A DNA stretch of 64,000 bases from Candidatus Deferrimicrobiaceae bacterium (GTDB taxonomy: Bacteria; Desulfobacterota; Deferrimicrobia; Deferrimicrobiales; Deferrimicrobiaceae), in the NCBI GenBank assembly GCA_036504035.1, contig DASXVV010000011.1, positions 73,611-137,610 on the forward strand, read 5' to 3'. This document shows positions 1 through 20,361 of the stretch, in pieces. Made by a program: the position numbers and the translations under genes. Under the pieces are notes generated by a model. The model was not told the DNA's origin. It was given only the letters and a program-made list of their open reading frames with translations, and made no database searches. Within the stretch, counting starts at the first letter, position 1, and each line of letters opens with the position of its first letter.

Positions 1-854
1 CTGGCGCCGCGGTCGAAGCCGCAGACGTCGCAGGCGCGCGCCGTGGAATAGAACTTGGACTGCCAGAACATGAACATGCGATGACGCTCGAGGTAGTCCA
101 TGGAGCCCCAATACCAACGGTTGGACTTGGGCTTCGGGGCAAAGAAGTTGGTATAGAAGTCGTCGATATTGTTGCCCGGACGGTAATTGGCCGGAAACGG
201 GAACTGCCCGCCCGCCTTGGTGTCTTTCCCGTCGGTGTGGCACTGCTCGCAGATCATGTCGGCACGGTCCTTCGGGAGCTTGGCGGGATTGACGATGTCG
301 GCCGCGGCCTGGCTCTTGGCATGTTTGTCGCCGGGCCCGTGGCACGACTCGCATCCGATGGACGGCTCGGTGAACGACTTGGTCTCGGGATCGAAGCCGG
401 TGGTGTGGCAGCCGTCGCACCAGATGGTATAAGGCTTCTCTCGCCAGTTGAACATCGAATAGGGTTCCCAGTCGTCGGCGACCAGGTTCCAGACCTTGGG
501 CAGGACGAAATAGTCGTTGTCGATGCGAGTGAGGTATTTCTGGACCCAATGGCTGCCGATCGACCAGTTGATGTCCTTGCGCTTGAAAGGAACGCGAGAG
601 AAGTCGATGGCCGCGACCGCCTTGCGGTTTTTCTTGGCGTCGCGAAGCATGTTGGCGTGCGGCGTCAGGATCCACTGGTTGTAGATCTCGTCGTGGCACT
701 CTTCGCATCGTTCGGAACCGGCGAAGCCCTTGGCGCCGGGTCCTCCGAAAGCGGAGGCGGCGGACGGCACGCACAGCAGGGCGAGCGCCGCGGAAGCCAT
801 GAGGCAAAACGCGAGCGTAACGACGGGGACAGTCGGTCGGGACGTGCGATTCAT
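1..854 (-). CDS. Multihaem c-type cytochrome, C-terminus off the window
   Basis: The gene starts at an ATG at 854 and reads without a stop through the left edge, so the C-terminus is missing. A signal peptide is followed by four visible CXXCH haem motifs (CEECH, CDGCH, CESCH, CEQCH) and a CDVCG motif that lacks the haem-ligating His. Motif order and surrounding residues (SERC near the start, a Y-L-T-R-I-D-N stretch, GCESCHG) match the cytochrome at 1997-3121, so the two are paralogues. The start lies 8 nt below the thioredoxin gene at 863, indicating one transcript. It is likely a periplasmic or exported electron carrier; the partner is unknown. Confidence 0.88.
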   Translation of the reverse strand, partial: MNRTSRPTVPVVTLAFCLMASAALALLCVPSAASAFGGPGAKGFAGSERCEECHDEIYNQWILTPHANMLRDAKKNRKAVAAIDFSRVPFKRKDINWSIGSHWVQKYLTRIDNDYFVLPKVWNLVADDWEPYSMFNWREKPYTIWCDGCHTTGFDPETKSFTEPSIGCESCHGPGDKHAKSQAAADIVNPAKLPKDRADMICEQCHTDGKDTKAGGQFPFPANYRPGNNIDDFYTNFFAPKPKSNRWYWGSMDYLERHRMFMFWQSKFYSTARACDVCGFDRGA

Positions 855-862
855 AAAATACC

Positions 863-1396
863 CTATTTGATGAAGCTGTGAATGATGTCGGAGACCTTCT
901 CGGAGGGGGAGTATCCCCCTTTTTTGTAGAGCAGGACGCCCTTGGCGTCGATGACCGCCAACGAGGGCGTGTAGTTGAAGCCGAAGACGCGGGGCAACGA
1001 GAACTTGGGGTCGACCAGGTAACGGACCCTGAAGTTGTTGGCCTTGGCGAACGGCGCAACGGTCTGGGCGCCGCGCAGGTCGACCGCGATGCACCAGGCA
1101 TCGATGCGGGTCTGGTTCCTGGCCAGGAGATCGTTGATCTCCTTGAGCTCTTCATAGCAGGCGCTGCAGGCGGTGGTCATGAAGAAAAAGAGCGTGACCG
1201 GCGCCTTGCCGCGAATCTGGCGTTCGTAGGATACTTGTCCGCCGGTGAGGGACGACAGCGAGAATTCGGGAACGCGCTGTCCGACCTCGAGCGGCTTGGG
1301 CGGCCCCGGTGAAGGCGCCGCGCCCGCGACGGCGGCAGTCGCGATCAGGAAGGCGACCGCCGTCGCGACCGAAATCCGGTAAAGGCCGCGAGTCAT
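863..1396 (-). CDS. TlpA/redoxin-like periplasmic thioredoxin (CSAC)
   Basis: This 177-residue secreted thioredoxin-fold protein has a signal peptide in the first ~27 residues, then an AhpC/TSA-like start (VGQRVPEFSLSSL) and a CxxC site, Cys77-Ser-Ala-Cys80. The cis-Pro region (YTPSLAVID) and a C-terminal helix follow, as in the TlpA/ResA family. The start codon overlaps the stop of the upstream thioredoxin gene in an ATGA arrangement, so translation is probably coupled. Proteins of this type reduce apocytochrome cysteines or shuttle thiol reductant in the periplasm. The flanking cytochrome genes fit that role, but the substrate is inferred. Confidence 0.85.
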   Translation of the reverse strand: MTRGLYRISVATAVAFLIATAAVAGAAPSPGPPKPLEVGQRVPEFSLSSLTGGQVSYERQIRGKAPVTLFFFMTTACSACYEELKEINDLLARNQTRIDAWCIAVDLRGAQTVAPFAKANNFRVRYLVDPKFSLPRVFGFNYTPSLAVIDAKGVLLYKKGGYSPSEKVSDIIHSFIK

Positions 1397-1971
1397 CTCT
1401 TCGGGAGTTCCTTGACGAGATCTTCGATGACGAACGGCAGGTCGTCGTCGGCGCCCATCGTGTTTTCACCCACATGCGAATAACGGATGATGCCCTTGTG
1501 ATCGATGACCACCTTGAGGGGGATCGGCCCGGCGAGGCCGTAGGACTTGGTGGCCACGGCCAGATCCTGATCGAGCAGGATCGGGTAGTTGAGGCGCTTT
1601 TCACGCATGATCTTCTTGACGTCGTCGACGCTGCCCGACTGGAGGACGATGGAGAGCAGCACAAAGCCCTTGTCTTTCCAGCTGTTGTGGAGTCGAACCA
1701 GGTTGGGCATCTCTTTCTTGCAGATGTCGCACCAGGTGGCCCAGAACTCGAGCATGACCACCCTTTTCTCTTTTGCGTTGGGCCCCACGTATTCGGACAA
1801 GTTCACCATGCGCCCCCGGGGATCGGAAAGATCCTTGAGACGGAAATCTGGGGCCTTGTCGCCGACCTTGAGCCGCATGGCGGTATCGCCGGCGGCAAAT
1901 GCCCCCCCCGCGGCGAACAGGACCGACGCAGCCGCAAGAATAGAAATGACAGTCTTGATCGCACCCCGCAT
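1393..1971 (-). CDS. TlpA family thioredoxin (CDIC)
   Basis: This is a 192-residue secreted thioredoxin-like protein. The ATG at 1971 was chosen because it is preceded by an AGGGGG ribosome site and gives a clean signal peptide ending near AAGGAFAA; the frame opens 37 codons earlier but with no such signal. The core has the classical W-A-T-W-C-D-I-C site (Cys81/Cys84), KKEMPNL after it and a Pro near residue 147 in GPIPLKVVID. It lies 25 nt below a multihaem cytochrome and overlaps the next thioredoxin gene by 4 nt. It probably delivers or removes electrons at periplasmic cysteines. Confidence 0.87.
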   Translation of the reverse strand: MRGAIKTVISILAAASVLFAAGGAFAAGDTAMRLKVGDKAPDFRLKDLSDPRGRMVNLSEYVGPNAKEKRVVMLEFWATWCDICKKEMPNLVRLHNSWKDKGFVLLSIVLQSGSVDDVKKIMREKRLNYPILLDQDLAVATKSYGLAGPIPLKVVIDHKGIIRYSHVGENTMGADDDLPFVIEDLVKELPKR

Positions 1972-1996
1972 TACACTGCCCCCTAAACGATTGAAA

Positions 1997-3121
1997 TTAA
2001 TGATCGACCACGACGGGCTTTTTCCAGGATTCGAAAGTATCGTAAGCCCATTTTTCGCCTTTGTCAGCATGACATTTTGCACACCGCTTGTTGATTTCCT
2101 TGTCCCAGCAATTCTGGCTGTGGATCAGGAAGAAGCTGTAGGAATGGACGTCTGCGGGCTTCGCTTCATTCACCTGATTCTGAGGTTTTTCGATATGGCA
2201 ATCGGAACAGCCGACCGCCCCGTCCTTGTGGTGGGTGTGCTGGGGAACCCGGTCTTCGAATTCGTGGCAGCCAAGGCACACGGCGTTCGGATCGGTCTTG
2301 GTGTCTTTCGGCTTGGCGTCCTGGTGGATGCCGCAAACCTCGCACCTGGAGCGCGCCTGGGCCTCGCGATCGGCCTTCCACTTCCCCCAGAGCCGATGGA
2401 TCGCGACACTGTTCGTCTCGCCCTCTTTCTTTTCGAGGGGGACGAGGAACCGCCCCAGCTCTTCGCCCGGCTTCCAGCCGATCGGAAAGAAATATTCGTC
2501 GGAAAGGTCTTTGCCGCGAACGTGGCAGGAGGCGCAGATTTCCTCGCGGCGATCCTCGGGAAGCCGACCCGGGTTGACGATATTGCTGCGGCCCGGGGCG
2601 TTGACGTGGGTTCGGCCGGTTCCGTGGCACGACTCGCACCCGATCGAGTGTTCGTAGATCGTTTTGGTGACCGGGTTGAAACCGACCGAATGGCAGCCGA
2701 TGCAATAGTTGGAATAGGGACGCTTTTGCCATCCGTATGTGCTGTATGGCCGCCACTTGTGGCTTTGGACCGACCAGAGCCGGGGCAGTATGTAGTACTC
2801 GTTGTCGATCCGGGTCAGGTAACGCTGGTCCCAGTGGCCCCCGATCGTATAGTCGATGTCTTTCTTGGAAAACGGCAAGTCGGGCGCGGTCATGTCGGCC
2901 ATGACGACCGAGGGGTCTTTCCGGGCATCCTGGACGGCCGTGCTGTGGAAAGTCTTGACCCACCCCTTGTACTGGAGCTGGTGACAGGCGACGCATCGTT
3001 CGGAGCCGACGTATTCGGGCCCCTTCACGGTCATCGTGATGCCCGAAACGGGCAAAGCCAAGAGCGCGGCGATCATCAACGCGGAGGCAAGAACCCCCCA
3101 AGTCAGTCTACGGCTTGTCAT
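1997..3121 (-). CDS. Heptahaem c-type cytochrome
   Basis: A secreted protein of about 374 residues with seven CXXCH motifs (CVACH, CIGCH, CESCH, CASCH, CLGCH, CSDCH, CAKCH) and one CEVCG that lacks the His. The ATG at 3121 overlaps the TGA of the upstream thioredoxin gene (ATGA); a TTG three codons earlier is a less likely start. It is a paralogue of the cytochrome at the left edge and keeps the same CxxCG element. The large gaps between haem motifs resemble multihaem cytochromes with folded spacer regions rather than the dense c7/c3 type. Function is inferred as periplasmic or outer-surface electron transfer. Confidence 0.92.
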   Translation of the reverse strand: MTSRRLTWGVLASALMIAALLALPVSGITMTVKGPEYVGSERCVACHQLQYKGWVKTFHSTAVQDARKDPSVVMADMTAPDLPFSKKDIDYTIGGHWDQRYLTRIDNEYYILPRLWSVQSHKWRPYSTYGWQKRPYSNYCIGCHSVGFNPVTKTIYEHSIGCESCHGTGRTHVNAPGRSNIVNPGRLPEDRREEICASCHVRGKDLSDEYFFPIGWKPGEELGRFLVPLEKKEGETNSVAIHRLWGKWKADREAQARSRCEVCGIHQDAKPKDTKTDPNAVCLGCHEFEDRVPQHTHHKDGAVGCSDCHIEKPQNQVNEAKPADVHSYSFFLIHSQNCWDKEINKRCAKCHADKGEKWAYDTFESWKKPVVVDH

Positions 3122-3660
3122 TTGTCGCAAGCGTCCTTTCCTGCCAGGATCATTTCCTCGATCTTGCGGACCGAATCGACCCGCGCCCCGATCGACGTCA
3201 AGAGGATCCGGTCGCGATTTCCGATCACGACCGTCAAGGGAACGATCCGGTCGACGTAAAGGTTGGTGATGACCTGGTTATCGTCGACCACCACCGGAAA
3301 ATCGATCGAGATTTGGCGTTTGGCCACTTCGGCGGAAAGCCTGGCGGCATCGAAGCCGTCGGCGTTCACGGCATAGATCCGGGCCTTTTCACGAAAACGA
3401 TCGTTGCGCCATACCGCGTTCAGTTGTGCGATCTTCGTCTGGCACGGCTTGCAATTGACGCCGAAGAATATCAAGACGACGTAGGGGCGTCCCTCGGCCA
3501 GCGTATCGGATGTCAGCTTTGTGCCGGAAAGCGTCGTGCAGGAAAAAGACGGAGCTAGAGGATAATCGGCGGCGGCCGATGTGGAACCGAATAGCGACAC
3601 CACCCCAAGAAGCGGGATGACAAGGGTCATCAATACGAAAGTTCTTGCGGAAGAAGGCAT
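3118..3660 (-). CDS. Redoxin-like periplasmic thioredoxin (CKPC)
   Basis: A 180-residue thioredoxin-fold protein with an N-terminal signal or anchor segment (residues ~7-30) and a divergent active site, Cys70-Lys-Pro-Cys73, in the stretch FFGVNCKPC. The start codon shares one base with the stop of the gene upstream (TAATG), and its own stop overlaps the cytochrome start downstream. It is therefore tightly bound into a four-gene translationally coupled run of thioredoxins and cytochromes. The cis-Pro region reads IVPLTVVIG. Substrate unknown; cytochrome cysteine redox control is the likely job. Confidence 0.8.
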   Translation of the reverse strand: MPSSARTFVLMTLVIPLLGVVSLFGSTSAAADYPLAPSFSCTTLSGTKLTSDTLAEGRPYVVLIFFGVNCKPCQTKIAQLNAVWRNDRFREKARIYAVNADGFDAARLSAEVAKRQISIDFPVVVDDNQVITNLYVDRIVPLTVVIGNRDRILLTSIGARVDSVRKIEEMILAGKDACDK

Positions 3661-4211
3661 TATTTCGAAACAAGTGCCTTTTTAAGCGCTTCTTCGAGTT
3701 CTTTCTCGTCGCCGGCCTTGAAGTCTTCGTGCCGATACTGGATGCGCCCGTCTTTCCCGATGACGAACGACAACGGGGCTCCCGCAAGATTGTACATGTC
3801 GGGAATCTTGAACTCGGGGTCGGGCAGCACGGTGAATTTCGGCGAATTCTGCATGCCGGGCATCTGCTTCCGGATCATCTCGGGCTTTACGCCGTCGACA
3901 TTGACGCCCAGGAAGACCACGCCCTTGGATGAGTACTGATCGAACAGCGGGTTGAGATAGCCGATTTCCTCGACGCACGAGGAGCAGCGCAGCCCCCAGA
4001 AGTTGAGGAACACGATCTTGCCCGCCTTGGTCAACTCTTCGAGGCTGACCCGATCGCCATTGAGGGAGGTCACGACGAAAACGGGAGCCGCATCGCCCGG
4101 GCCCGGCTTGTTTTCGGGCATGGCGCCTGCGCCGGCAATAGACGCAAGGACCATCGAGAGCAGGAATACCGCCAGCGGAAGCGCGGCACGATTTCGAATG
4201 TTGAAGGGCAT
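3660..4211 (-). CDS. TlpA family thioredoxin (CSSC)
   Basis: A 183-residue secreted TlpA-like protein. The ATG at 4211 is preceded by an AGAGG element and opens directly on a signal peptide (to about residue 30). The upstream extension of the frame overlaps the neighbouring cytochrome gene and is not needed. The active site is Cys76-Ser-Ser-Cys79 in FWGLRCSSC, and the cis-Pro segment is AGAPLSFVIG. It sits downstream of the 5-haem cytochrome at 4249 and overlaps the next thioredoxin gene by one base. Confidence 0.84.
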   Translation of the reverse strand: MPFNIRNRAALPLAVFLLSMVLASIAGAGAMPENKPGPGDAAPVFVVTSLNGDRVSLEELTKAGKIVFLNFWGLRCSSCVEEIGYLNPLFDQYSSKGVVFLGVNVDGVKPEMIRKQMPGMQNSPKFTVLPDPEFKIPDMYNLAGAPLSFVIGKDGRIQYRHEDFKAGDEKELEEALKKALVSK

Positions 4212-4248
4212 GTCTCGAGACCTCTCGGGTGAAAGAATAGTCTGGCGT

Positions 4249-5175
4249 TCAGTCGTCAAGCGTGTGGCAGGCATCGCACAGCGGCTGCCAATTGGGGACC
4301 AGACGGATGACACCCGACGGGTCCTTGTCGAATTGCCGCTGGGCGCCATCGGTTGCGGCGCCGACGACGCCCGATTTGTAATCGATCGGCGTGATGGACG
4401 CAGGCCCGGCCCAGCCCCTCCGGAGGATCCGCGCCCCGGTATTGGTGTACCCGGTGTGGCCGTTGGCGTGGCAAGAGATGCAATTGACCTTGTTGGCCCC
4501 CGGATATATCACTTCGCTCGTGCTCCCGGCGGGAACGGGGTTGGTGTTGTCGATGAAAAGGCGCGTGAACGCGCTTGCGGGGTCGCTGTTGGACAGGATG
4601 GTGCCGTTTGAGGTCGTGTCTCCGGTCATCGGATGGTGCCCCGGAAGCGACGCCGTGACATGGCACCCTTCGCAAAGCGTCGTGCTCGAGCTGTCGATCT
4701 GGTTCGGCTGCGCAGGGCGGAGGTCGGAGTTGAAGGACGACTCGACCAGGTTGTTTCCGCCCTTTCGGTTGAGGATGATGTTGTGGCACGACTCGCAGAT
4801 GATCTCGCCCTTGACCCCGGTAACGGAGATCGGCGGCGACGCCACGTAATTCCCGTATTTGGACAAGGCTGTGGTCGTAGACCAGGCAACGAGGCGCTCT
4901 TTGGCGGTCTGGTCTGCGGAGGAAGTGGTGCGGGAAGTCTGGTGAACGAAATGGGAGCCCCTTCCGACCACGGGAGCCACGGTGTGGCAATCGACACACA
5001 TCGCGGAAGCGCCGTTGTTGGGGACGTTGTCGGTTCCGTAGCTGGCCTTGGGCAACCCGGGATTGGCCGGATTGAGGCCGCCGTCTCCGAAAACGGACCG
5101 GGAGGCGAGAGTCAGGACGAAAGCAATGCACAAGATGTTTCGTACAACCACCGGCCGCTCCCGGACAAATTCCAA
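4249..5175 (-). CDS. Pentahaem c-type cytochrome (family A)
   Basis: A 308-residue secreted protein with five CXXCH motifs (CVDCH, CESCH, CEGCH, CISCH, CDACH). The mature N-terminus (GLNPANPGLP) and the CVDCH...CESCHNI spacing match the cytochrome at 5976-7133, so these are paralogues. The frame opens at a TTG at 5175 with AGGCGG seven bases upstream; a GTG a few codons further in is an alternative. Few, widely spaced haems joined by long Ser/Thr/Asn-rich linkers recall extracellular filament cytochromes such as OmcE/OmcS, but that is only a hypothesis from motif layout. Confidence 0.88.
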   Translation of the reverse strand: MEFVRERPVVVRNILCIAFVLTLASRSVFGDGGLNPANPGLPKASYGTDNVPNNGASAMCVDCHTVAPVVGRGSHFVHQTSRTTSSADQTAKERLVAWSTTTALSKYGNYVASPPISVTGVKGEIICESCHNIILNRKGGNNLVESSFNSDLRPAQPNQIDSSSTTLCEGCHVTASLPGHHPMTGDTTSNGTILSNSDPASAFTRLFIDNTNPVPAGSTSEVIYPGANKVNCISCHANGHTGYTNTGARILRRGWAGPASITPIDYKSGVVGAATDGAQRQFDKDPSGVIRLVPNWQPLCDACHTLDD

Positions 5176-5208
5176 ACCCGCACCGCCTGAAGAAAAAGAT
5201 ATCTGTAG

Positions 5209-5214
5209 ATTATA
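5209..5214 (-). promoter_or_regulatory. Candidate sigma-70 -10 box for the pentahaem cytochrome gene
   Basis: A perfect TATAAT on the minus strand lies 34 nt before the TTG start at 5175. The only -35-like hexamer at 17 bp is weak (TAACAT). The segment is AT-rich and follows the hairpin at 5265-5292, so an own promoter is plausible but not certain. Confidence 0.35.
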
Positions 5215-5264
5215 CTATTTGGATCAAGCGCATGTTACCAGAAAACGGGGCGGGGATTCGAGGT

Positions 5265-5292
5265 GGACGGAGGCCTTTTTCGGCCTCCGTCC
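5265..5292. terminator. Hairpin, probable terminator after the CTAC thioredoxin gene
   Basis: A perfect 11-bp stem (GGACGGAGGCC with GGCCTCCGTCC) and 6-nt loop lies just past the stop of the gene at 5301-5810. There is no long U-tract on the minus side, so it may act as a processing or attenuation stem. Confidence 0.55.
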
Positions 5293-5300
5293 TTCCCCAA

Positions 5301-5810
5301 CTAACGTTCCTGAAGGTATTCTTTCCACTGGTTGGACTTGTAGCCGAACTTGGTGTAGAGGATTTTGCCGTCCTTGACGATCAGCGTGGACGGATTGGTG
5401 CCCAGGTTGGTCGCCTGGGCGATCTTCTGCTCGGGATCGGCCAGCATCGTGAACGGAAGATTGCCGATGCGCTCGGCGCCGGTCTTGCTGTCCATGTCGA
5501 TCACGACGGCATAGACTTCGGCCTTGCCCTTGAAGCGCTCGAGATTCTCGGAGAGCTCCTGGAGTTCTTTGCGGCAGGCCGTGCAGACCGAGGAAACCAT
5601 GACGAAAACGGACTTTTCGGTCAACTTCGCCAGTTCGACCTTCTTGCTGCCATCGACGGTGCTGAGAACCACAGGCTGGAGGTTGTCGCCAATGTTCTGG
5701 CCGTACTTGATGGGTTCCGGAGCCTTGGCGACTTCTTCATCGGCCGCGTACGCGAAGACGGACAGGCCAAGCGAAAGCGCGGCAACCATGACCAATGCCT
5801 TAAGCTTCAT
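5301..5810 (-). CDS. AhpC/TlpA-like periplasmic thioredoxin (CTAC)
   Basis: A 169-residue secreted thioredoxin-fold protein with a signal peptide to about residue 22 and active site Cys76-Thr-Ala-Cys79 in SSVCTACRKEL, with a cis-Pro segment GTNPSTLIV. A strong AGGAGG sits 8 nt before the ATG. It is closest in form to the CSAC protein at 863. It lies between two hairpins (5265-5292 and 5910-5949), so it may be transcribed as a single gene between the two pentahaem cytochromes. Confidence 0.84.
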   Translation of the reverse strand: MKLKALVMVAALSLGLSVFAYAADEEVAKAPEPIKYGQNIGDNLQPVVLSTVDGSKKVELAKLTEKSVFVMVSSVCTACRKELQELSENLERFKGKAEVYAVVIDMDSKTGAERIGNLPFTMLADPEQKIAQATNLGTNPSTLIVKDGKILYTKFGYKSNQWKEYLQER

Positions 5811-5909
5811 ACAGTGGACCTCCTGGCAGGATATTGAGGCTGCTCGCCTCTTGCCTAATCATATCGGAAGTTCGGACGTCAGACTTGAATATATTATTCA
5901 CATGATAAG

Positions 5910-5949
5910 GGTTGCCCGGCAGGCGTGATCACTCGCCTGCCGGGCAACC
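5910..5949. terminator. Strong hairpin terminator below the pentahaem cytochrome gene
   Basis: A perfect 16-bp inverted repeat (GGTTGCCCGGCAGGCG and its complement) with an 8-nt loop lies 26 nt after the stop of the cytochrome at 5976. There is no clear U-run, but the stem strength and position support a transcript end. Confidence 0.65.
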
Positions 5950-5975
5950 GGTCTAAACGTGCTGCGACTGCCGGA

Positions 5976-7133
5976 TTAACGGAGCTTGTGGCAATCCTGG
6001 CAGTAGTTGAAGTCGTTGAAGCCCATCCACGTCCGGCCGTTTTCGCCGATGCGGGAGATGGAGTTCGCCGCGGTGATCGTGCCCTGGGCGTTGGTGTCGC
6101 GCAGGATCGAAGCCGCGGTGGTGGCGTCGCCCGAGTGGGGGGCGGCGTGGCAATGCACGCAGTTGATCTGCGTCGCGGTGGTGGACTTGATCTTGCTGCC
6201 GTCGTTGTTCCATGCACCGACGATCATGGGCATGGTGCCGCGGGTGTTGGCGACGCCGGTCGTCGTAACGGCCGAAGCGGCCGGCAACCAGCCGGCAGCC
6301 GAGGTGTCCTTGACGAGCGTGTCAGCCCAGTAGAGGCCCTGACCCGCGATGGCCTGGGTGATCGTGTCGGCCGTCATGACATGGTGGTTCTGGGCCATCG
6401 GAGCGCCGTTGATGTAGTGCTGGTGGTTGTTCTGCTTGTCGCCTGCAGTCACTTCGTTGGCCTTCCGGGTGTCCGCGTAGCGCGGCTGCTGGGCGGTCGC
6501 GTTGGTGGCGTACAGGAAGCCGTGGCAACCGACGCAAAGGGTAGCTTCGTCGGAAACGGACCACGGGCTGGCCTGCACCAGGTTGCCGCCGCCGGCCACA
6601 TAGGCACCGGACATCGGCGCGAGCAGGTTGTTGCCGCCGGCCACGTTGGAAACGATGTTGTGGCAGGATTCGCAGATGATTTCGTAGCCGCCGAAGGAAG
6701 ATGCGGTGGCTTGCGCCGTCGCGAGGCCGGTGTTGTCGGTGCGTGCCCCGAAGATGTAGGTCACGTTGTCGGCTGCGTTGCTGTACTTGGAGTAGACGTT
6801 ACCGCGGGCGGCAACGGGGTTGGGCCATGCGGAGATCTTGAAGTACTGGCCGCCGGTGGCGCCATCGCGCACGCCGAACCGGGAGCCGGACCAGCCGCCG
6901 CCGGTGCGGGTGTCGTGCGTGGTGCCGCCGCCGGTCACGAAGTGCGTGCCGTTGTTGGCCGAGGCGCTAGGAATACGGGAGTGGCAATCGACGCAGATGC
7001 GCGATGCTCCCGGGTTGTAGAAGGTGGTGCCGCCGGCCAGGCCCGGGTTCTGGGGATTCAGGCCAGCACCGGCTGTACCGAAGGCAAGGGCGAGAGCGCT
7101 CATGCCCAAAAGCAAGATCTTGGTGTACCTCAT
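5976..7133 (-). CDS. Pentahaem c-type cytochrome (family A, larger paralogue)
   Basis: A 385-residue secreted protein with a signal peptide ending near GTAGAG, mature start GLNPQNPGL and five CXXCH motifs (CVDCH, CESCH, CVGCH, CVHCH, CQDCH). It shares the N-terminal layout, CESCHNI motif and terminal CxxCH of the cytochrome at 4249. GGAGG lies 10 nt before the ATG. It sits 60 nt below the 9-haem cytochrome gene, so the two likely share the sigma-54-type promoter at 8910. The low haem density with Gly/Asn/Thr-rich linkers suggests an extracellular carrier, possibly a filament subunit; this is inference. Confidence 0.9.
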   Translation of the reverse strand: MRYTKILLLGMSALALAFGTAGAGLNPQNPGLAGGTTFYNPGASRICVDCHSRIPSASANNGTHFVTGGGTTHDTRTGGGWSGSRFGVRDGATGGQYFKISAWPNPVAARGNVYSKYSNAADNVTYIFGARTDNTGLATAQATASSFGGYEIICESCHNIVSNVAGGNNLLAPMSGAYVAGGGNLVQASPWSVSDEATLCVGCHGFLYATNATAQQPRYADTRKANEVTAGDKQNNHQHYINGAPMAQNHHVMTADTITQAIAGQGLYWADTLVKDTSAAGWLPAASAVTTTGVANTRGTMPMIVGAWNNDGSKIKSTTATQINCVHCHAAPHSGDATTAASILRDTNAQGTITAANSISRIGENGRTWMGFNDFNYCQDCHKLR

Positions 7134-7193
7134 CTTTTATGTACCTCCGAAAAGGATTTACGTTCGTTCGTTATCGAACTGCCGGTGCGTTGA

Positions 7194-8756
7194 TTACCAG
7201 TTGTGTGCCGTGTTGTTGAAGGTGTGGCAATCCGCGCAGTCCATGCCGGTGACGGTGACGTCGCCGAGGCCCGTGGTGGTGTTGCGCCAGGACGGCAGCG
7301 CGATCTGGAGCTTGGTGGCCGTGTCGCCGACCTTGTCGACCGAGCCGGCCGCAATGGCGCCAGCGTGCGTGACATGGTGGGAGTTGGCAACGTTCGCGCC
7401 GGTGGCCACCGAGGAACCCTTGGACTGGTCAGCTTCGTTGGGGATGCCGACGCCGCTGTGGCACTGCTTGCAAATGGCCTTGGTGCCCTGACCGAGGTTG
7501 GCGATGGACATGCCCGTGCCGAAGTGGACCTTGTGGCAGGAGGTGCAAAGCACGCGGCCGGTGGTGCCGAGCTGGTTGTATTCGTTGTTGTTGGCAGGAC
7601 CCGCATTCCAGCTTGCCGGCGTCAGCGTGGCGATCTGGAAATTGAAGTTGCCCACGCTCGAGACGTAACCGTTGGCGCCGACCGCGGTGGAGGTGCCGAC
7701 CGGGTGGCCCCACGCCGTGGTGCCGACGCGGTATTCGGAAGCATCGGCCGCCTGCGTGGTGGAGGAGCCGTGGCAACCGACGCAGAGGGGGTTCCAGCCG
7801 TTGTTGAGGTCGGCCGTCTGGATGACGGTCAGGGCGTTTTCGCCGGCAATGCCACCGTTGCGGTGCGCTGCGTGACAGGTGTAGCAGCCCATCTGCTGGG
7901 TGCTGGCGCCCCCGGTCCAGTTGTTCATTGCGGCGTTCTGGCCGGACGTCAGGTGGCCGCCACTGGCCCAGGAATTGGCCGTGCCGGTCATCGCGGCTGC
8001 GGTGAAGTTGTTGGCGACGTCGAAGATGCGCCCGCCGGTGTAGCCCTGGATGACGATGGAGCGAGCATGACGGGTGAGCGTGTTGCGGCCGGCGGCTGCC
8101 GTGTTGTCGACCAAGAAGTCGACCGGGTGGTTGCCGTCCGGATTTGCGGTCAGGTTATTGGTGGCGCGTTCGGTGTGGCACTTGTCGCAGAAGCCGTCGA
8201 GCGTGGTCGCGTTGCTCGCGGCCAGCGGCGCCCAAAGGAACGGCGCATTGGCGCTGTCGTGGACTGCGTGGCAGGAAGTGCATTCGATCGTCGTCGCGGC
8301 GGTGCCGACGTACGGCCAGGTCTGGGCGCCCGTCGTGAGGGCGGTCAGGTCCTGCGTGGCGCCCGCCGCGTTCTTGAGGGCGGACTTCAGGTGACCGTGC
8401 GAATTTTCGAAATAGACCACGTCGTAGGTCTTGGTGTTGGCCACGGCGTTATAGGTCAATGGATCGATGCTGACCGAAGTGGATGGGATCAGGGTGGCGG
8501 AAGGCCCGAGGATCGTCTGGCCGGAAACGCCCGCGTGGCAGCGTGCGAGGCAAAGGCCGCCGACGTTGCCGAACTGGTTGTCGGTCGCACCCGAGAACAC
8601 GAAGGTGGACGAACGGCCGTGGCACTGGAAGCAGCCTTCCTTCTGGGCGTTGTAAGTCCGCATGTCGTGGTGCGAGTTGTCGAACGCCGCCTGGGCCATG
8701 CCCACGCAGAACAGCAACATCAGCGGAACAAGAAGCAAAACCTTCGACTTCCTCAT
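7194..8756 (-). CDS. Nonahaem c-type cytochrome with one CX3CH site
   Basis: A 520-residue secreted protein with a signal peptide ending at AQA. It has eight CXXCH motifs plus a ninth of the form CLARCH (CX3CH) about 70 residues in. Several motifs are followed by HxxH (for example CTSCHAVH, CYTCHAAH, CTSCHKVH), typical of the doubled-CXXCH superfamily. AGGAGG lies 7-8 nt before the ATG. It is the first gene after the sigma-54-type promoter at 8910-8924 and is followed by the pentahaem cytochrome. Likely a periplasmic or cell-surface electron carrier. Confidence 0.91.
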   Translation of the reverse strand: MRKSKVLLLVPLMLLFCVGMAQAAFDNSHHDMRTYNAQKEGCFQCHGRSSTFVFSGATDNQFGNVGGLCLARCHAGVSGQTILGPSATLIPSTSVSIDPLTYNAVANTKTYDVVYFENSHGHLKSALKNAAGATQDLTALTTGAQTWPYVGTAATTIECTSCHAVHDSANAPFLWAPLAASNATTLDGFCDKCHTERATNNLTANPDGNHPVDFLVDNTAAAGRNTLTRHARSIVIQGYTGGRIFDVANNFTAAAMTGTANSWASGGHLTSGQNAAMNNWTGGASTQQMGCYTCHAAHRNGGIAGENALTVIQTADLNNGWNPLCVGCHGSSTTQAADASEYRVGTTAWGHPVGTSTAVGANGYVSSVGNFNFQIATLTPASWNAGPANNNEYNQLGTTGRVLCTSCHKVHFGTGMSIANLGQGTKAICKQCHSGVGIPNEADQSKGSSVATGANVANSHHVTHAGAIAAGSVDKVGDTATKLQIALPSWRNTTTGLGDVTVTGMDCADCHTFNNTAHNW

Positions 8757-9056: not shown

Positions 9057-10589
9057 CTATTTGGGCATGTCGTATATGTAGACCTTGTTGCCCATCGCGC
9101 TGAGGATGTAAAACCGCCCCGCCTTTTCGTTATAAACGAAGGAGGACGCCAGGTTCGTCGACAGCTTGAACATGCCCTTCTGCTCGATATCGGCGTAGCT
9201 GGCGAGATACTTGAAATCCTTGTCGAATTCCTTGAGGACCTGCATCTGGCTGTCGAACACGAACATCCCGCCGTCTTTCTTGAAGTATAATCCGCCAATT
9301 CCCTGGAACTGGTCGAGCTGGCCGCCGACGCCGCCCAGGACCTTGATGAGCTTCTTGGTCTTGGGGTCGAAGACCTTGATCTGGGCGTTCATCGCCAGGA
9401 TGGCGTAAAGATTGCCGTCGTACGGGTTGCAGTAGAGGATGCCGACGCCCGGCATGTCTTCGGGGGCGATGGTCTGGGCATTGAAAGTACCGGTCATGCG
9501 CCCGAGGACCGCGAGCTCCTTTTTGCCGGAGGGGTCAAGCTGGATCAGCTGGAACCGCTTGCCGTCGGAGATCCAGTAGTTGCCTTCCTTGTCCTGCGCG
9601 ACGAAGTTCGGATTGTTGACCGATCTTTTCTGGGGATCTTCGGGATAGGTGATCTCCTGGACGACCTTCCCGTCGGCGCCGACCTTGCGGACCATCGCTT
9701 CGGCATAGAAGACCAGGAGGAAATTGCCGTCCTTGTCGGGCACGATCGCCGACGGGTGTGACCACTTGGGATCGAGGGTGATCCGGTGGAGAAACTTTCC
9801 GTCCTTGTCGACGAACTGGATGCTGTTGCGGTCGAGAACGGCCAGTTCGCCGTTGTCGAGGAGGGTCATCCAGGCGGGCGCCTCGAATTCGTAGAGATCT
9901 TCCCCGGCGAACGTTCCCTTGGGAACCGGCTTCTTGACCAGGATCTTCATATCGGACACCTTGACCACTTCAACCGTCTTGGCTTCCTGGAGAGCCGATT
10001 TTTCGGACTCGGTGTTGTTCTTGTCGACGGCGGTCACGCGGTAGAAGTAGGTCTTCATCTTGTCGATCTTGCGGTCGGTGTAGATTTCCTGCTGAAACGA
10101 TCCGAGCAGGTCGTAGGGGCCGTCTTTCTTATCGGAACGGTAAAGATTGAAGAAGACGGAGCCGACCGGATTCGACCAGCGTAGGGTAATCGCATCGGCA
10201 GCGGGGATGACCCCCGTGAACGCCGGCGGTTTCAACGGCTCGACGCCCCTGAGAGCCGCGACGGGGGAAAAGTCGGTGTCCTTGCCGCCCGCGACGCCGA
10301 CGACCTTGTATTCGATGGTCTTGGTAACCGGCGCATCGGCATCGTTATAGGTGTTGACCGGGCCTTTGTAGACTTCCTTGAAATCTTCGGAGCCCATCTT
10401 CTTGAACAGCCGGTACTCGGTCGCCCCGGGAACCGGGGTCCACATGATGATGACCGCCGCACCAGCACGAAGCGGGAAGCCGGGCATCCACATCGGTCCG
10501 GCTGCCTGCGCGACCCCCGCCATGGACATCATGACAACGGGAACCACGAGCAGCCCGAAAAGCAAAATTCGCTTTGCAAACTGTTTCAT
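9057..10589 (-). CDS. Secreted FnIII/NHL beta-propeller protein
   Basis: A 510-residue protein with a signal peptide (to ~29), then two fibronectin type III-like domains (about 38-115 and 120-205, each ending in a Y-Y/F-x-V-x-A-V strand) and a C-terminal NHL-type six-bladed propeller (about 230-510; blades with DNGELAVLD, DKDGNFLLV and KDGGMFVFD). The start overlaps the prolyl isomerase stop (ATGA). NHL propellers beside prolyl isomerases and multihaem cytochromes are reported in Geobacter-type extracellular cytochrome loci, where a role in cytochrome export or assembly is suspected. No catalytic residues are visible, so a scaffold role is likeliest. Confidence 0.8.
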   Translation of the reverse strand: MKQFAKRILLFGLLVVPVVMMSMAGVAQAAGPMWMPGFPLRAGAAVIIMWTPVPGATEYRLFKKMGSEDFKEVYKGPVNTYNDADAPVTKTIEYKVVGVAGGKDTDFSPVAALRGVEPLKPPAFTGVIPAADAITLRWSNPVGSVFFNLYRSDKKDGPYDLLGSFQQEIYTDRKIDKMKTYFYRVTAVDKNNTESEKSALQEAKTVEVVKVSDMKILVKKPVPKGTFAGEDLYEFEAPAWMTLLDNGELAVLDRNSIQFVDKDGKFLHRITLDPKWSHPSAIVPDKDGNFLLVFYAEAMVRKVGADGKVVQEITYPEDPQKRSVNNPNFVAQDKEGNYWISDGKRFQLIQLDPSGKKELAVLGRMTGTFNAQTIAPEDMPGVGILYCNPYDGNLYAILAMNAQIKVFDPKTKKLIKVLGGVGGQLDQFQGIGGLYFKKDGGMFVFDSQMQVLKEFDKDFKYLASYADIEQKGMFKLSTNLASSFVYNEKAGRFYILSAMGNKVYIYDMPK

Positions 10590-12391
10590 TTCATTCTCCC
10601 TTCCTTGGATGACATCTTTGAGTATGTAGAGGAAAAGCGGTCGTATTCCGGTGTGAACTGGATCTTGTTGTTTTTCTTCAGGCCGGACAGGACCGACTTG
10701 ACGACGCCCTCGCGCTTGCCGGCCATGACGGCCTTTTCAAGGCTGGGCTTGTCGGCCTGCTCGAAGGGGATGACCCCCTTTTCGCGGACGCCGTTGACCC
10801 GGGCGACGATATAAAGGTCGACGTTCTCTTTCTTGGCCCGAAGCTTGATCGGCTCTTTCGAATATTCGCCGACCTTGAGCTTCTTGACGTCGGCAAACTG
10901 GGGAGCGATCGTGGCCTCGGGAACGAACCCGAGCCGTCCCCCCTTGAGCGTCTTGTTGTCGGACCATTTCTCGGCGACCTCCTCGAAAGGGGTCCCCTTG
11001 GCCAGCAGCCCGTAGATCTCGTCGAGGCGCGACTTGGACTTGGTCTCTATCAGGGAGACATCGAGAGAATGCCCGACGCTGAATTCGGCCAGGTGCTTGT
11101 CGTAATAGTCCTTCATCTCGGGGCCCGTCACCTGAATGTCGCGGCAGCGGTAATTGATGAACTCGCGTGCGAGCACCTCTTCTGTAAGCAGCTTTTCCTG
11201 GAGACTGCGGGCGGGTTCCTGCGCCTTCAGCCCCAGGCGGGCAACCTCTTGCGCGACGGCATAATCCTCGGCACGCTTGTTGGCGATGATCTCGAGTGTG
11301 TTTTCACCGTGGATGAGCCCCGTACCCGAGGGATCGACCAGGTCGACCAGGAAGAAATCGACGCTGTCGACCTTGAACGCGGACTTGAGCATCAGCGGCT
11401 CGATCGACTGCTTGTTCGCGCGCGCCTTCATGTAGCCGTCGATCACCGCCTTGTTGAGGACGATCTTGTGCTTCTTGATCACCTTCGCCTTGTAATCGTC
11501 CCAGACCTGTTTCCCCTTTTGGGCGAGGACCTCCTTGCGGCCGTTCGGGAGCCATTCGATCTTTTGCGATTCGGGCATCTTCCGGTCGAGCAGCCTGAAC
11601 ACGGACTGGCCGAGCGTGGTCTCGATCACGGGAGACAGCTCGCCTTTCTTGAGCCGGAAGATCGACGCGATCACCTTGGGATCGTACATGGTCGACCCCC
11701 GCTTGATATAACCGACCTTGCCGCCGTTTTTCGCGGTGAGCCCGAGGGATTCCTGCTTGGCGACGTCGTCGAAGGATTCGCCCGCGGCCATGCGCTTGCG
11801 GAACTGCTCGGCCTTTTCCGGGGAATCGGCGATGAACTGCTGGACGGAGACGAGTTCCTCGAATTTGGGTGCCTTGGCCAGCACTTCCTTGTCGGTGACC
11901 TTGATGGAGGGCTGCACCACCCGGGTCCATAAAACGTCTTTCCAGATCTGGTTGCAGCGCGATTCGATCTTGGACCGGGAGCGGGGTAGCTTGTCGACGC
12001 CTTCCTTGACCGCCATCGTGGCCAGCAAACGATTGTTGATCATGGAATCGACCAGTTCCGGCAGAACCTGGGGCCCCTTTTGGGCCTCGGGCCCCGCGAT
12101 CACGTCCATGTACATCCGGAATTCGATCGCGGGAACGGGGACCTGGTTTACGAGGAACAACGGCTTTGGGGATGCACCGGCAAGGGCGGCGTCAACGGCG
12201 GCCATGTTGTCGGAGGGAAGGCTGGGGGCTGTTGCCGCCAGGGCATTGTCGGCCAAGGCATTGTCGCGGGCGGGAGACGCGGTTTTGGACGAATCCGGAC
12301 CCGAGCATCCGACTGCAGCGAACAGGCAAAGCGCCAGGACCGGCGCAGCCATTCGCCTCCGAGAATCGACGTTTTGAATTGCGGTAACCAA
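10586..12391 (-). CDS. Lipoprotein prolyl isomerase with two parvulin domains
   Basis: A 601-residue SurA/PrsA-like protein. The TTG at 12391 is preferred: GGAGGA lies just upstream and this start keeps the positively charged DSRRR before the lipobox AAVGC. The ATG 13 codons in would lose that charge. An N-terminal SurA-like helical region is followed by a first parvulin domain (about 170-265) and a second near 435-550 (KGGRLGFVPE...). It overlaps the NHL gene by 4 nt and follows the sigma-54 regulator by 31 nt. Probable role: folding of exported cytochromes or the propeller protein in the periplasm. Confidence 0.85.
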   Translation of the reverse strand: MVTAIQNVDSRRRMAAPVLALCLFAAVGCSGPDSSKTASPARDNALADNALAATAPSLPSDNMAAVDAALAGASPKPLFLVNQVPVPAIEFRMYMDVIAGPEAQKGPQVLPELVDSMINNRLLATMAVKEGVDKLPRSRSKIESRCNQIWKDVLWTRVVQPSIKVTDKEVLAKAPKFEELVSVQQFIADSPEKAEQFRKRMAAGESFDDVAKQESLGLTAKNGGKVGYIKRGSTMYDPKVIASIFRLKKGELSPVIETTLGQSVFRLLDRKMPESQKIEWLPNGRKEVLAQKGKQVWDDYKAKVIKKHKIVLNKAVIDGYMKARANKQSIEPLMLKSAFKVDSVDFFLVDLVDPSGTGLIHGENTLEIIANKRAEDYAVAQEVARLGLKAQEPARSLQEKLLTEEVLAREFINYRCRDIQVTGPEMKDYYDKHLAEFSVGHSLDVSLIETKSKSRLDEIYGLLAKGTPFEEVAEKWSDNKTLKGGRLGFVPEATIAPQFADVKKLKVGEYSKEPIKLRAKKENVDLYIVARVNGVREKGVIPFEQADKPSLEKAVMAGKREGVVKSVLSGLKKNNKIQFTPEYDRFSSTYSKMSSKEGRMK

Positions 12392-12422: not shown

Positions 12423-13855
<1,433 letters not shown>

Positions 13856-13856
<1 letters not shown>

Positions 13857-15361
13857 CAGAGTTTCTCCTTGGGGAGGAATACCGAGAATACGGCGCCACG
13901 CTCGGGGCCGTTGGCCGCGGAGATCCTGCCGTCGTGCATATCGAGAATCTTGCGGGTCATCGAAAGCCCGAGGCCGGTCCCGTTCTCCTTGGTCGTGAAG
14001 AAGGGCTGGAAGATCTTGCCCAGTCTGTCGGCCGGGATACCCGGACCGTCATCGGCAATGCTGGCCATGACGAAGCGGTTTCGATGCTTGATGTCCTCGA
14101 ACTCGGCCGGGACTTCGGAGTAGGTGCGGACCGTCAGCGTGCAGCCGTCGGGATTGGCCTGCAGCGCGTTTAGCGCGAGGTTGAGGAATACCTGCTTCAA
14201 CTGTTCGGCATCCATCTCGATCTCGGGCATCGCCGGATCGAAGTCGCGGACGATCTTGGCCCGTTTACCCTCCCGGATCTGCTGCACGAGGAAGAGCACC
14301 TTGTCGATGACGTCGTTGAGGTTGCCGGGCGCAAAGCGCGGCTCGGTGTAGCGCGAGAAATTGAGCATGTCGCGTATGGTGTTGTCGAGACGCTTGATGA
14401 GCACCATCATCTCTTCGACGATCTCGCGCTTGACGTCGCCCTCGGGAAATTCGCGAGCGAGGACCTGGGCTGCGCCATAAATGCCGGCCAGCGGATTCTT
14501 GATCTCGTGGGCGATGCCGGCCGCCATCTCGCCCAGCGAAGCCAGCCGGTCGGCGCGAACAAGCTGGCGGTGGTGGAACCGCTCGATCTCGGCCTGTGCC
14601 TCGGCCAACTTTCGGATCATCTCGTTGAAGCTGCTGCCGAGCCGCCCGAGCTCGTCGCCGCTTTGCAGGTCGACCTTGACGTCGAGATGCCCGGCCTCGA
14701 CCGACATCATGGTGTCGACCAGCCGGGAAACGGGGGTGGAGACGAACCGCTTGAGCATGATGCTGTTGAGCAGCGAGGTGAGGAGGATGGCCAGGCCGGT
14801 GAAAGAGAGCAGGATCAGCCGGTTCGATTCGATCTTTTTCTCGGTTTCTTCCATCGAGAGGCAGACGTCGAGGATGCCCAGGACCTCGCGGCCGGCCGGG
14901 TGGCAGCGGCGACACGACGGCTGGTTCTCGATCGGCTCGACCATGCAGAAGGAGCGGTGCCCTGTGCTCGTGCTCGCGAACGGCGTGCTGCGGTCGGGGC
15001 CAGGCTTGCGATAGGTGTCATAGTCAAGTTCGTCGGTGAGCTTGCCGATCTCGGAGAGCTTCGCGGAATAGAGGATGACGCCGTCATCGTTGAACACGCG
15101 CATCTTCTCGACACCCGGCAGCGCGCCGACCGTGTGGAAGATGGAGATGAGCGAGTTGGCGTGGCCGCTCTCCATGCCGATGCGGATGGTGTTCTTGAGC
15201 GCCCGCGTCAGGATCTGCGCCTGAAGCTTGGTGGCTTCGATCGCCTGGTCGGACTGGATGCGGTACATCAGGTAGGACGACGTGCCGAAAACCACCACCA
15301 GGGAGATGCTGATGGCGAGCGACATGCGGAAGAAGAGAGAGCGGGGGAGAATCCTCATCAC
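13856..15361 (-). CDS. Sensor histidine kinase with periplasmic haem c motif
   Basis: A 501-residue kinase: TM1 ~13-33, periplasmic domain ~34-180, TM2 ~181-203, HAMP ~204-256, HisKA with phosphoacceptor His285 (GIAHEIKNP), and an ATPase domain with DDGPGIP and GTGLGLS. The periplasmic domain contains C150-R-R-C-H154, a canonical haem c site, followed by GREVLGILDV as in PAS/Cache sensors. Haem-binding periplasmic PAS-like sensors are known in Geobacter chemoreceptors. It is translationally coupled to its response regulator. Likely senses redox state or a diffusible haem ligand; the actual signal is unknown. Confidence 0.92.
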
Positions 15362-15413: not shown

Positions 15414-16361
15414 TCATAGTTGGTGGCAAGTCTTGCAAAGCTGCCCCTGGCTCTTGACGAAGAGGCGCCGCTCGGGCGACTGGTGCGGCGCGTGGCAGCC
15501 GATGCATGCCATCTCGAGGGTGCCCGCCGTGTTGTCGACCGGGAAGTCGGGCGGGATCGTGGTCAGCTTGCCTTTCGACACGGCCGACCGGTGCTGGCTG
15601 TGGGGGCTTTCGTGGCAGGTCAGGCAAAGCAGGTTGCCCGTCTTGATCAGCTGCTTGGCCCCCGGTCCCGCGTGGGGGCTATGGCAAGCGACGCAGTCGC
15701 CGTAGCTGACGGGCTTGTGGACAACGCCGTCCTCGGGAAATGGATCGTGGCACTCGCGGCATCCCTTCTCGGTCTTCAGGAGCTTGGGAAACGAAGAAAA
15801 GTGGGGATCGTGGCAGGAGGTGCACTCGCCGCCCGCGACGGGCGTATGAACGAAGACTGTCTTGCCCTCTTCGACCTTGGTGAAATCGGTGTGGCAGGCG
15901 TAGCACGATTCTTTCTGGGGCTTGGACGACAGCTTGCCGTCCTCGAACGTGTGGCAGCCCTCGCAGCCGTCGTCGAGCGCGGGATGGAGCTTGGATGAGA
16001 GGAAGACGTAGGGCTCCTCGCTCTTTTTCCCCTGGAGCATGAAGCGGTCCATCTTGGCGTTGGGCAGGTAGTAGATGCGGACGCGCTTGCCGGCAACTTC
16101 GAGGAAGTTGAGCCCAGGGTTGAGCGCGATCTCGCCCTTCTTGAAATTGTCTCCTTCGATGCCGGTCAGCGCCTTGAAGTTGATGGTCGCGCCCAAGGGC
16201 GTCGCCTTGTCGGGAGAGAAGATGAATACCTTGACCTTCCCCTCGGATGAAAGCATCAGGTCGGGGGGGTAAAGGACAACCGGGCCGTCGGCTGCGCGAG
16301 CGGTCGCGGAAAAGAGCAGGAATAACATCACCAGGATGCGGAGCGTGTTACGGGTGTTCAA
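15414..16361 (-). CDS. Octahaem c-type cytochrome
   Basis: A 315-residue secreted protein: signal peptide to ~23, a haem-free beta-rich N-terminal domain (to ~130), then eight CXXCH motifs in 180 residues (CEGCH, CYACH, CTSCH, CRECH, CVACH, CLTCH, CIGCH, CKTCH). Repeats of the type GECTSCHDPH and GDCVACHSPH place it in the doubled-CXXCH superfamily. The TTG start at 16361 has AGGAGG 9 nt upstream and overlaps the Fe-S protein gene by 14 nt. The domain plan matches the 5-haem protein at 18579, suggesting relatedness. Confidence 0.9.
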   Translation of the reverse strand: MNTRNTLRILVMLFLLFSATARAADGPVVLYPPDLMLSSEGKVKVFIFSPDKATPLGATINFKALTGIEGDNFKKGEIALNPGLNFLEVAGKRVRIYYLPNAKMDRFMLQGKKSEEPYVFLSSKLHPALDDGCEGCHTFEDGKLSSKPQKESCYACHTDFTKVEEGKTVFVHTPVAGGECTSCHDPHFSSFPKLLKTEKGCRECHDPFPEDGVVHKPVSYGDCVACHSPHAGPGAKQLIKTGNLLCLTCHESPHSQHRSAVSKGKLTTIPPDFPVDNTAGTLEMACIGCHAPHQSPERRLFVKSQGQLCKTCHQL

Positions 16362-18578: not shown

Positions 18579-19328
18579 CTACTTCTGATGATAAGGTTTG
18601 TCTGATGCGTGGGGATCGTGGCACTGGGTGCACGGCTTCCCCTTGGATCTCGTCATGTGCTTCTCGGAGCTTTCCTGGTCGTGGCACATCACGCAAAGGC
18701 TCAACGGCTCGGCCACGGTCAGAGACTTGTGGGAAGAACCGTGGGGATCGTGGCACGCGGTGCATTCTCCCGCGCCCATCGGGCCATGGACGTTCTTTCG
18801 TCGGTCCTTGCGCTGGTGACAACGGTAGCACATCTTGTCTTTCGGACCGGCCATCTTGAACGAAGCGTCTGCCGCCGGATGACAGCCGCCGCACTTTTCG
18901 AGGGAAGGGTGCGAAACGTAGTCGGGCTTGCCGCCGGCGTTCACCGTGATCGTGAATTCATTCTTGCCGGATCGGGCGACGATCGTGTTCTTCCCCGGAG
19001 ATAGCGTGACGAGGCAGTAAAACCCGTCACGCTCGAGGGTGGCCTGCCCGGCCATGGAGCCGTCGACGAACAGGTCGACTCTCCCCCCCTCTTCGGATGT
19101 GCGACCGATGATCATCGTCTTGCCGGCCGGGAGATTCGCTCCTTCTGCGGGAGCCAGGATCGCAAAACGCGACTTCGGGAGCTTCGTTTCGATGACCAGC
19201 GGGCCGGTGGGTGCCGACTTGGGAGGCGGCGCGGCAACGGCGGGGGACATGAAATCCCCCGCCGTCAACGCCAGGAACAGGACAAATGCGGTGCGGACAC
19301 CGAGCGCGAGCGACTTTCCGTTCTGCAT
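18579..19328 (-). CDS. Pentahaem c-type cytochrome with N-terminal beta domain
   Basis: A 249-residue secreted protein with a signal peptide to ~32, a haem-free beta-sandwich-like domain (~45-130, PAEGANLPAG...FVDGSMAG) and five CXXCH motifs (CGGCH, CYRCH, CTACH, CVMCH, CTQCH), two of them followed by DPH. The layout parallels the octahaem protein at 15414. It sits between the two cysteine-free thioredoxin/TPR genes, 8-9 nt from each, so the three are almost certainly one operon and perhaps one complex. Confidence 0.89.
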   Translation of the reverse strand: MQNGKSLALGVRTAFVLFLALTAGDFMSPAVAAPPPKSAPTGPLVIETKLPKSRFAILAPAEGANLPAGKTMIIGRTSEEGGRVDLFVDGSMAGQATLERDGFYCLVTLSPGKNTIVARSGKNEFTITVNAGGKPDYVSHPSLEKCGGCHPAADASFKMAGPKDKMCYRCHQRKDRRKNVHGPMGAGECTACHDPHGSSHKSLTVAEPLSLCVMCHDQESSEKHMTRSKGKPCTQCHDPHASDKPYHQK

Positions 19329-20351: not shown

Positions 20352-20361
20352 TCCCGTCCCC

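Follow-up and report, generated by a model that had tools for sequence, protein, structure and literature searches.

Multihaem cytochromes and periplasmic thiol-disulfide chemistry usually meet only during cytochrome assembly. In this work we describe a locus from a Candidatus Deferrimicrobiaceae bacterium where the genes for the two are interleaved. It occupies positions 1-8756 of a 64,000-nucleotide stretch that we call the window (C11:73611-137610 of a 14-contig genome of 3.17 Mb). Our gene and Pfam reading agrees with a preliminary description of this DNA in finding five secreted proteins of thioredoxin fold, here named by their CxxC sites CSAC, CDIC, CKPC, CSSC and CTAC, and five multihaem cytochromes, the last of which runs beyond the window. 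Two of the cytochromes, cyt1 and cyt2, have an altered haem site in which the histidine is lost and both cysteines are kept, and across genomes cytochromes of this kind are often accompanied by particular thioredoxins.

The closest solved structure to the cyt2 family is OcwA of Thermincola potens (PDB 6i5b), a member of the c554/NrfA/MccA superfamily that aligns over about 300 residues. The two are homologous over the haem scaffold, with haem sites 1-4 and 7-9 in correspondence. However, cyt2 has no site at haem 5, carries CxxCG at haem 6 and, with seven haems, does not have the full OcwA haem set. In addition, the available portion of PMC6703420 mentions no thioredoxin partner for OcwA.

The five thioredoxins all exceed the curated Pfam cut-off for AhpC-TSA. 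They share with ResA, CcmG, TlpA and SirH the fold, the CxxC (present in all five) and, judged by eye, probable secretion signals. The acidic residue after the CxxC, which has a role in ResA, is kept in four of the five (also by eye). They differ from these proteins in being tied to particular cytochromes, in occurring several to an operon and in reaching none of the NCBIfam cut-offs for ResA, DsbE and TlpA (best 91.9 bits against 170).

A further comparison is with the operons of SEEP-SRB1 and Desulfuromonadales that combine beta-propeller, PpiC and multihaem genes (PMC5539420, in the part available). The window also joins a beta-propeller-like protein, a prolyl isomerase and secreted cytochromes, but there is no 16- or 26-haem cytochrome among the genes called in window 1-26 kb, and the word thioredoxin is absent from the available main text of that paper. 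The selenocysteine multihaem cytochromes ExtKL and MccSep (PMC13188914, in part; PDB 9wt8) have in common with our proteins that a reactive chalcogen residue is added to a multihaem cytochrome. That said, the match is limited to the N-terminal haem region and no selenocysteine was seen here. Each component of the locus is a member of a known fold family. A search of the open-licence PMC literature found no description of the combination of His-less site, dedicated thioredoxin and redoxin-decahaem fusion that we report below, and the system is categorically new only if direct electron transfer between haem and dithiol is shown.

The ten genes and the two altered sites are given here, with expectation values (E) from domain or structure searches. 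Clade sizes refer to a tree of 135 redoxins, with support from the Shimodaira-Hasegawa-like approximate likelihood ratio test (SH-aLRT).

1..854, running past the window edge, minus strand: cyt1, an OcwA/c554-type octahaem cytochrome of 420 amino acids in all; 4 haems inside the window, 8 CxxCH and CDVCG in the whole gene; Pfam Cytochrome_C554 on an orthologue.
18..32, minus strand: CDVCG, the former haem site of cyt1, His lost and both Cys kept (sequence reading and alignment column).
863..1396, minus strand: TlpA-type thioredoxin CSAC; AhpC-TSA E 7e-15; clade of 10 rows from families f1, f2 and f24 (SH-aLRT 99).
1393..1971, minus strand: TlpA/ResA-type thioredoxin CDIC; AhpC-TSA E 1e-23; ResA structures E about 1e-16 to 1e-10; clade of 23 rows (99).
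1997..3121, minus strand: cyt2, a heptahaem OcwA/c554-type cytochrome; OcwA E 2e-24, and 2.6e-46 with relatives added.
2330..2344, minus strand: CEVCG, the former haem site of cyt2 (C260/C263), aligned with OcwA haem 6 (sequence alignment).
3118..3660, minus strand: TlpA-type thioredoxin CKPC; AhpC-TSA E 2.5e-10; clade of 12 rows (94).
3660..4211, minus strand: TlpA-type thioredoxin CSSC; AhpC-TSA E 4.5e-17; clade of 18 rows (93).
4249..~5175, minus strand: cyt3, a pentahaem cytochrome without a non-haem CxxC (motif reading).
5301..5810, minus strand: TlpA-type thioredoxin CTAC; AhpC-TSA E 1.6e-12; clade of 4 rows (93); orthologues adjoin cyt4 in G001, G002 and G015.
5976..7133, minus strand: cyt4, a pentahaem cytochrome whose opening motif resembles that of cyt3 (motif reading).
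7194..8756, minus strand: cyt5, a cytochrome of 8-9 haems, with 8 CxxCH and one CX3CH (motif reading).

Read 5′ to 3′ the order is cyt5, cyt4, CTAC, cyt3, CSSC, CKPC, cyt2, CDIC, CSAC, cyt1. The CSSC and CKPC genes overlap by 1 base, CKPC and cyt2 by 4 bases and CDIC and CSAC by 4 bases, with gaps of 8-165 bases at the remaining junctions. The preliminary description had several thioredoxin genes coupled to cytochrome genes. This is borne out by the overlap of CKPC with cyt2, but no other junction between a thioredoxin and a cytochrome overlaps.

Besides being related to each other, cyt1 and cyt2 have relatives among the octahaem proteins of c554 type. We aligned 60 proteins of this group, taken from the stronger profile matches rather than as a random draw. 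At a single motif column 15 of them have CxxCH and the other 45 have G, K, R or C after the CxxC. In this altered column both cysteines are present in 45/45 and the haem histidine in 0/45. The cytochrome search as a whole matched 73 genomes, with the altered site mostly read in the stronger matches only. The 45 His-less proteins form one clade (support 98), which includes an 11-haem protein encoded elsewhere in this genome. At the corresponding site nine of twelve 11-haem proteins have CDLCK or CDICK, and CDLCR, CDACG and CSACN occur once each, so no single residue stands in for the histidine. The lysine that marks the atypical CXXCK haem site of NrfA is not conserved in the 11-haem proteins: it is kept in just 9/12, and the other three have R, G or N. 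We dropped the reading of the 11-haem protein as a membrane-anchored quinol dehydrogenase of the NrfH type. It scores 31.7 bits for NrfH, far below the cut-off of 134.2, and its N-terminal hydrophobic segment, judged by eye, resembles an anchor in f1 but a signal peptide in the other families.

Three MAFFT modes, from which cyt1_L115_2655 and cyt2_L136 were excluded, agree on the correspondence with OcwA given above, including the absence of haem 5 and the altered site at haem 6. Placing the altered site at haem 5, the active-site haem of OcwA, was set aside as less likely after these alignments and a count of sites. According to the part of PMC6703420 available, haems 5-9 of OcwA superimpose on NrfA, and by sequence order haem 6 therefore equals NrfA haem 2. 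The donors NrfB and NrfH dock near NrfA haem 2 (PMC12285233, in part). As far as sequence can tell, the altered site would correspond to this partner-docking region.

The loss of the histidine is coupled to the presence of thioredoxins. Among the His-less proteins 34/45 have a redoxin gene no more than 1 kb away, against 0/15 of the CxxCH relatives (Fisher p 1.5e-7, with rows that are related); one of the 34 (L112) has a neighbouring redoxin without CxxC. The same was found for 11 of fourteen more His-less proteins, a manual tally in which several loci were picked with that in view. An orthologue of CDIC scoring >150 bits is present in 12/14 genomes with His-less proteins (it is missing in G025 and G281), in 0/14 genomes with CxxCH proteins only and in 0/20 haem-rich controls. 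In family f46 this orthologue is retained beside a CGPC thioredoxin, on contigs other than those of the cytochromes. Per genome, the CDIC profile (E 1e-10) finds 7-22 matches where His-less proteins occur, 0-4 in CxxCH-only genomes and 1-6 in the haem-rich controls. These controls were hand-picked from cytochrome- and fusion-search matches, and eight of them (G161, G198, G221, G240, G243, G254, G313 and G321) have weak cyt2-profile matches in which the site is unread.

The controls are not poor in haem. Their median haem-motif count is 520.5, against 458.5 in genomes with His-less cytochromes, and haem-rich genomes of the same phylum have up to about 1030 net CxxCH yet 1-6 such thioredoxins. 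This rules out that thioredoxin number merely tracks haem number; it is not set by cytochrome number alone. The earlier remark that generic maturation would not need five thioredoxins is well founded on the same 20 controls.

In total this genome encodes 20 AhpC-TSA proteins, of which 12 are in or beside multihaem genes (manual tally). In the redoxin tree the five of the window fall in five places, each with positional orthologues. These are separate old lineages, which rules out recent duplication, a refutation that had been proposed at the outset. The gene order is likewise conserved outside this genome. In G001, of the same genus, the order from cyt5 to cyt1 is identical, with sites CTAC, CSSC, CIPC, CDIC and CSAC. 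Other members of family f1 (G012, G008, G015) keep cyt2-CDIC-CSAC-cyt1, and G014 has CDIC, cyt1, cyt2 and a CSSC-type protein in a different order, without CSAC. Families f23, f89 and f97 (L101, L103, L106, L107, L108, L113) again show a CSSC-type gene, a CKPC-type gene, cyt2 and CDIC in this order, with the motifs CGPC, C[SAG]PC and CDIC at the three thioredoxin positions, and in family f24 the series runs on into cyt1 (L120, L121). This recurrence of gene order and orthologues across further genera and families means that the array is not a product of chance.

The idea that each thioredoxin is matched to a cytochrome holds in part. A match of CSSC, CKPC and CDIC to cyt2 is well supported, and one of CSAC to cyt1 is supported in f1 and f2; the CSAC-type rows of family f24 are not beside cyt1. 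For CTAC, the least widespread of the five, the match to a cytochrome is weak. Nor is the pairing one-to-one: there are up to three thioredoxins per cyt2, and in some families the genes are unlinked. A tandem of CASC and CGPC thioredoxins with no cytochrome nearby (L014:9998-11130) is also conserved in several genomes, and in G004 it sits beside CcsA (L061). We regard this tandem as a candidate for the generic maturation pair.

Two further modules combine haems and thioredoxins. Downstream of the gene for the 11-haem protein, 12/12 loci have a CPRC thioredoxin and next a CPLC, CPNC or CPYC thioredoxin, which is not a blind count because the loci were partly picked for a known adjacent thioredoxin coordinate. 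In one of them (G047, L171) the second thioredoxin is about 0.9 kb further along. The other module is a fusion of an N-terminal redoxin to ten CxxCH, found at full length in 20/395 genomes of the phylum. All 20 belong to the 22 genomes of this sample that have His-less cytochromes (the 22 being a manual tally). The C[ST][ST]C of the redoxin is intact in 20/20, and each fusion gene is immediately preceded by a gene for a CEPC thioredoxin.

The explanation we favour, although tentatively, is that dedicated thioredoxins work on a dithiol where the cytochrome once bound a haem, and in this way trade electrons with the haem chain. In the proposed mechanism one haem site of the OcwA/c554 scaffold (in cyt1, cyt2 and the 11-haem protein) would have lost the usual haem binding along with its histidine, leaving a haem-free site with a pair of invariant cysteines. 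The TlpA-type thioredoxins encoded nearby would be dedicated partners that contact the finished cytochromes and swap electrons with this pair, and the pair would pass electrons to or from the adjacent haems, in a direction that may be either. Periplasmic thiols would thereby be coupled to the haem network of extracellular electron transfer. An exchange of electrons between thioredoxins and haems, possibly within a pathway of redox sensing or thiol respiration, had been suggested before; it now has a physical handle in the cysteine pair and in the redoxin-decahaem fusion, but the exchange itself is something that we infer. In Shewanella, extracellular disulfide reduction depends on Mtr cytochromes (PMC10986466, in part), which makes electron traffic between haem and disulfide chemically reasonable.

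A more specific and more doubtful version is that these proteins constitute a haem-dithiol oxidoreductase. Here a partner-docking haem would be replaced by a redox-active cysteine pair, and dedicated periplasmic thioredoxins would carry electrons between thiols and the network of extracellular haems. The function would be carried jointly by three co-occurring modules, namely cyt2/cyt1 with CSSC-CKPC-CDIC-CSAC, the 11-haem protein with CPRC-CPxC and the redoxin-decahaem fusion with CEPC.

The cytochrome and redoxin array extends upstream of cyt5 to about 24.4 kb, and some of the genes found there bear on the alternatives.

9057..10589, minus strand: FN3/beta-propeller-like secreted protein; Pfam Mala_s_1-like E 6e-10, with FN3 and propeller named by eye.
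10586..12391, minus strand: double PpiC-type prolyl isomerase; Rotamase E 2e-20.
12423..15361, minus strand: sigma-54 response regulator and HAMP kinase with an extracytoplasmic CxxCH (domain scan and motif reading).
15414..16361, minus strand: cyt6, octahaem (motif reading).
17443..18570, minus strand: redoxin-TPR protein without CxxC (domain scan).
18579..19328, minus strand: cyt7, pentahaem (motif reading).
19338..20570, minus strand: redoxin-TPR protein without CxxC (domain scan).
20362..21669, minus strand: cyt8, with 13 CxxCH and two wider-spaced motifs, CX4CH-like and CX3CH (motif reading).
21729..23983, minus strand: CcsA and ResB, cytochrome c biogenesis system II; CcsA from Cytochrom_C_asm E 9e-57, ResB named only from its position beside CcsA.
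24107..24445, minus strand: small cytochrome with 4 CxxCH (motif count), which we take to be PpcA-like.

Some side observations concern these genes and their relatives. The histidine kinase (13856-15361, minus strand) has a HAMP domain and an extracytoplasmic CRRCH at residue 150, and its orthologues in L048 and L064 also have a CxxCH. Judged from its sequence and its place beside the sigma-54 regulator, it is possibly a c-haem sensor. Redoxins akin to the two CxxC-less proteins sit near cyt1 in family f23 (L105, L112, L184). The CX3CH site of cyt5 is CLARCH, at window 8535-8552. Searches of solved structures found no match for cyt3 and cyt4 and a weak stretch in 7tfs alone for cyt5, and a nanowire identity for cyt3-cyt5 is therefore unsupported. 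Downstream of cyt1 is a 633-amino-acid membrane-type protein (L013:17293-19194), kept in this position in other f1 genomes and without a match in a Pfam scan; beyond it are genes that look by eye like glycosyltransferases. Large cytochromes were seen elsewhere too. G000:C2:814-6675 has 32 listed CxxCH on one strand in about 6 kb, as a single very large cytochrome or several, and L053:3567-7445 (G046) encodes a 1292-amino-acid protein with 21 CxxCH near a CAAC thioredoxin and a 9-haem cytochrome.

Several points weigh against electron exchange through the cysteine pair. Eleven of the 45 His-less proteins have no thioredoxin within 1 kb. Because the His-less proteins are one clade, the histidine may have been lost just once and the thioredoxins likewise gained just once, so that the association does not amount to many independent trials. 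One HMMER alignment (with A4) put the altered site at OcwA haem 5, not 6. Furthermore, an AlphaFold2 model of cyt2 from a seven-sequence alignment has a predicted local distance difference test (pLDDT) score of 44, which is too poor to place the cysteine pair other than by its position in the sequence. This genome has a second copy of the fusion in which the redoxin cysteines are lost. The CTAC gene lies between cyt4 and cyt3 even though cyt3, cyt4 and cyt5 lack any CxxC outside their haem motifs. CTAC and cyt3-cyt5 are left unexplained by the dithiol and by the fusion alike, and a similar docking role is only assumed for them. Finally, CcsA/ResB in the array and the SirH precedent fit maturation equally.

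Dedicated maturation is indeed the main rival and, although doubtful, the best placed of the alternatives. It holds that the thioredoxins are specialised, each reducing or chaperoning the apocytochrome encoded next to it, in the manner of SirH for SirA or of dedicated haem lyases for unusual haem sites; in one variant the His-less site may carry an atypical haem. The presence of CcsA/ResB within the array fits this, as does CcsA beside the CASC-CGPC tandem in G004, and the solved structures most similar to CDIC include ResA. In Shewanella, deletion of sirH, which encodes a TlpA-like protein in the operon of an unusual cytochrome, slows sulfite reduction (PMC6976685, in part). The lysine found in 9/12 of the 11-haem proteins also resembles the CXXCK haem site of NrfA, but with G, K, R, N or C after the second cysteine there is not one haem ligand. 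Adjacency to thioredoxins tracks the His-less proteins and not their CxxCH relatives, and haem-rich genomes manage with the few thioredoxins counted above. A redoxin-decahaem fusion kept in 20 genomes is also hard to see as a transient maturation factor.

It is unlikely that the cysteine pair is a redox switch, that is, a thioredoxin-controlled disulfide that gates the cytochrome from off the electron path. A precedent exists in the disulfide control that has been proposed for OmcA and MtrC (PMC6703420, in part), and the array includes the kinase with an extracytoplasmic CxxCH. However, a switch alone leaves three thioredoxins per cyt2 and the redoxin-decahaem fusion unaccounted for. We find it improbable that the two cysteines form a structural disulfide or bind a metal, with the thioredoxins as no more than folding helpers. 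Invariant cysteines alone are no proof of redox activity, and the histidine was lost once, but this explanation predicts neither the fusions nor 7-22 thioredoxins per genome. Least probable of all, and strongly disfavoured, is that generic cytochrome maturation was scaled up for many haems and that the genes cluster by chance: the five thioredoxins do have the TlpA/ResA fold and thioredoxin number climbs with haem number in 34 controls (Spearman 0.53), but controls with equal or more haems have far fewer thioredoxins and the gene order is orthologue-specific across families.

For further work, the single cysteine pair offers a mutational target. Two other members of the family (L064, L065) originate from groundwater. 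If the exchange of electrons between thioredoxins and the cysteine pair is real, it would account for genomes that have 7-22 TlpA-like proteins, and thiols could feed extracellular electron transfer, drain it or gate it in uncultured bacteria of groundwater and sediment. The sets of thioredoxins kept beside His-less cytochromes in this genome and in many relatives point to a possible connection of sulfur chemistry with haem-based respiration.

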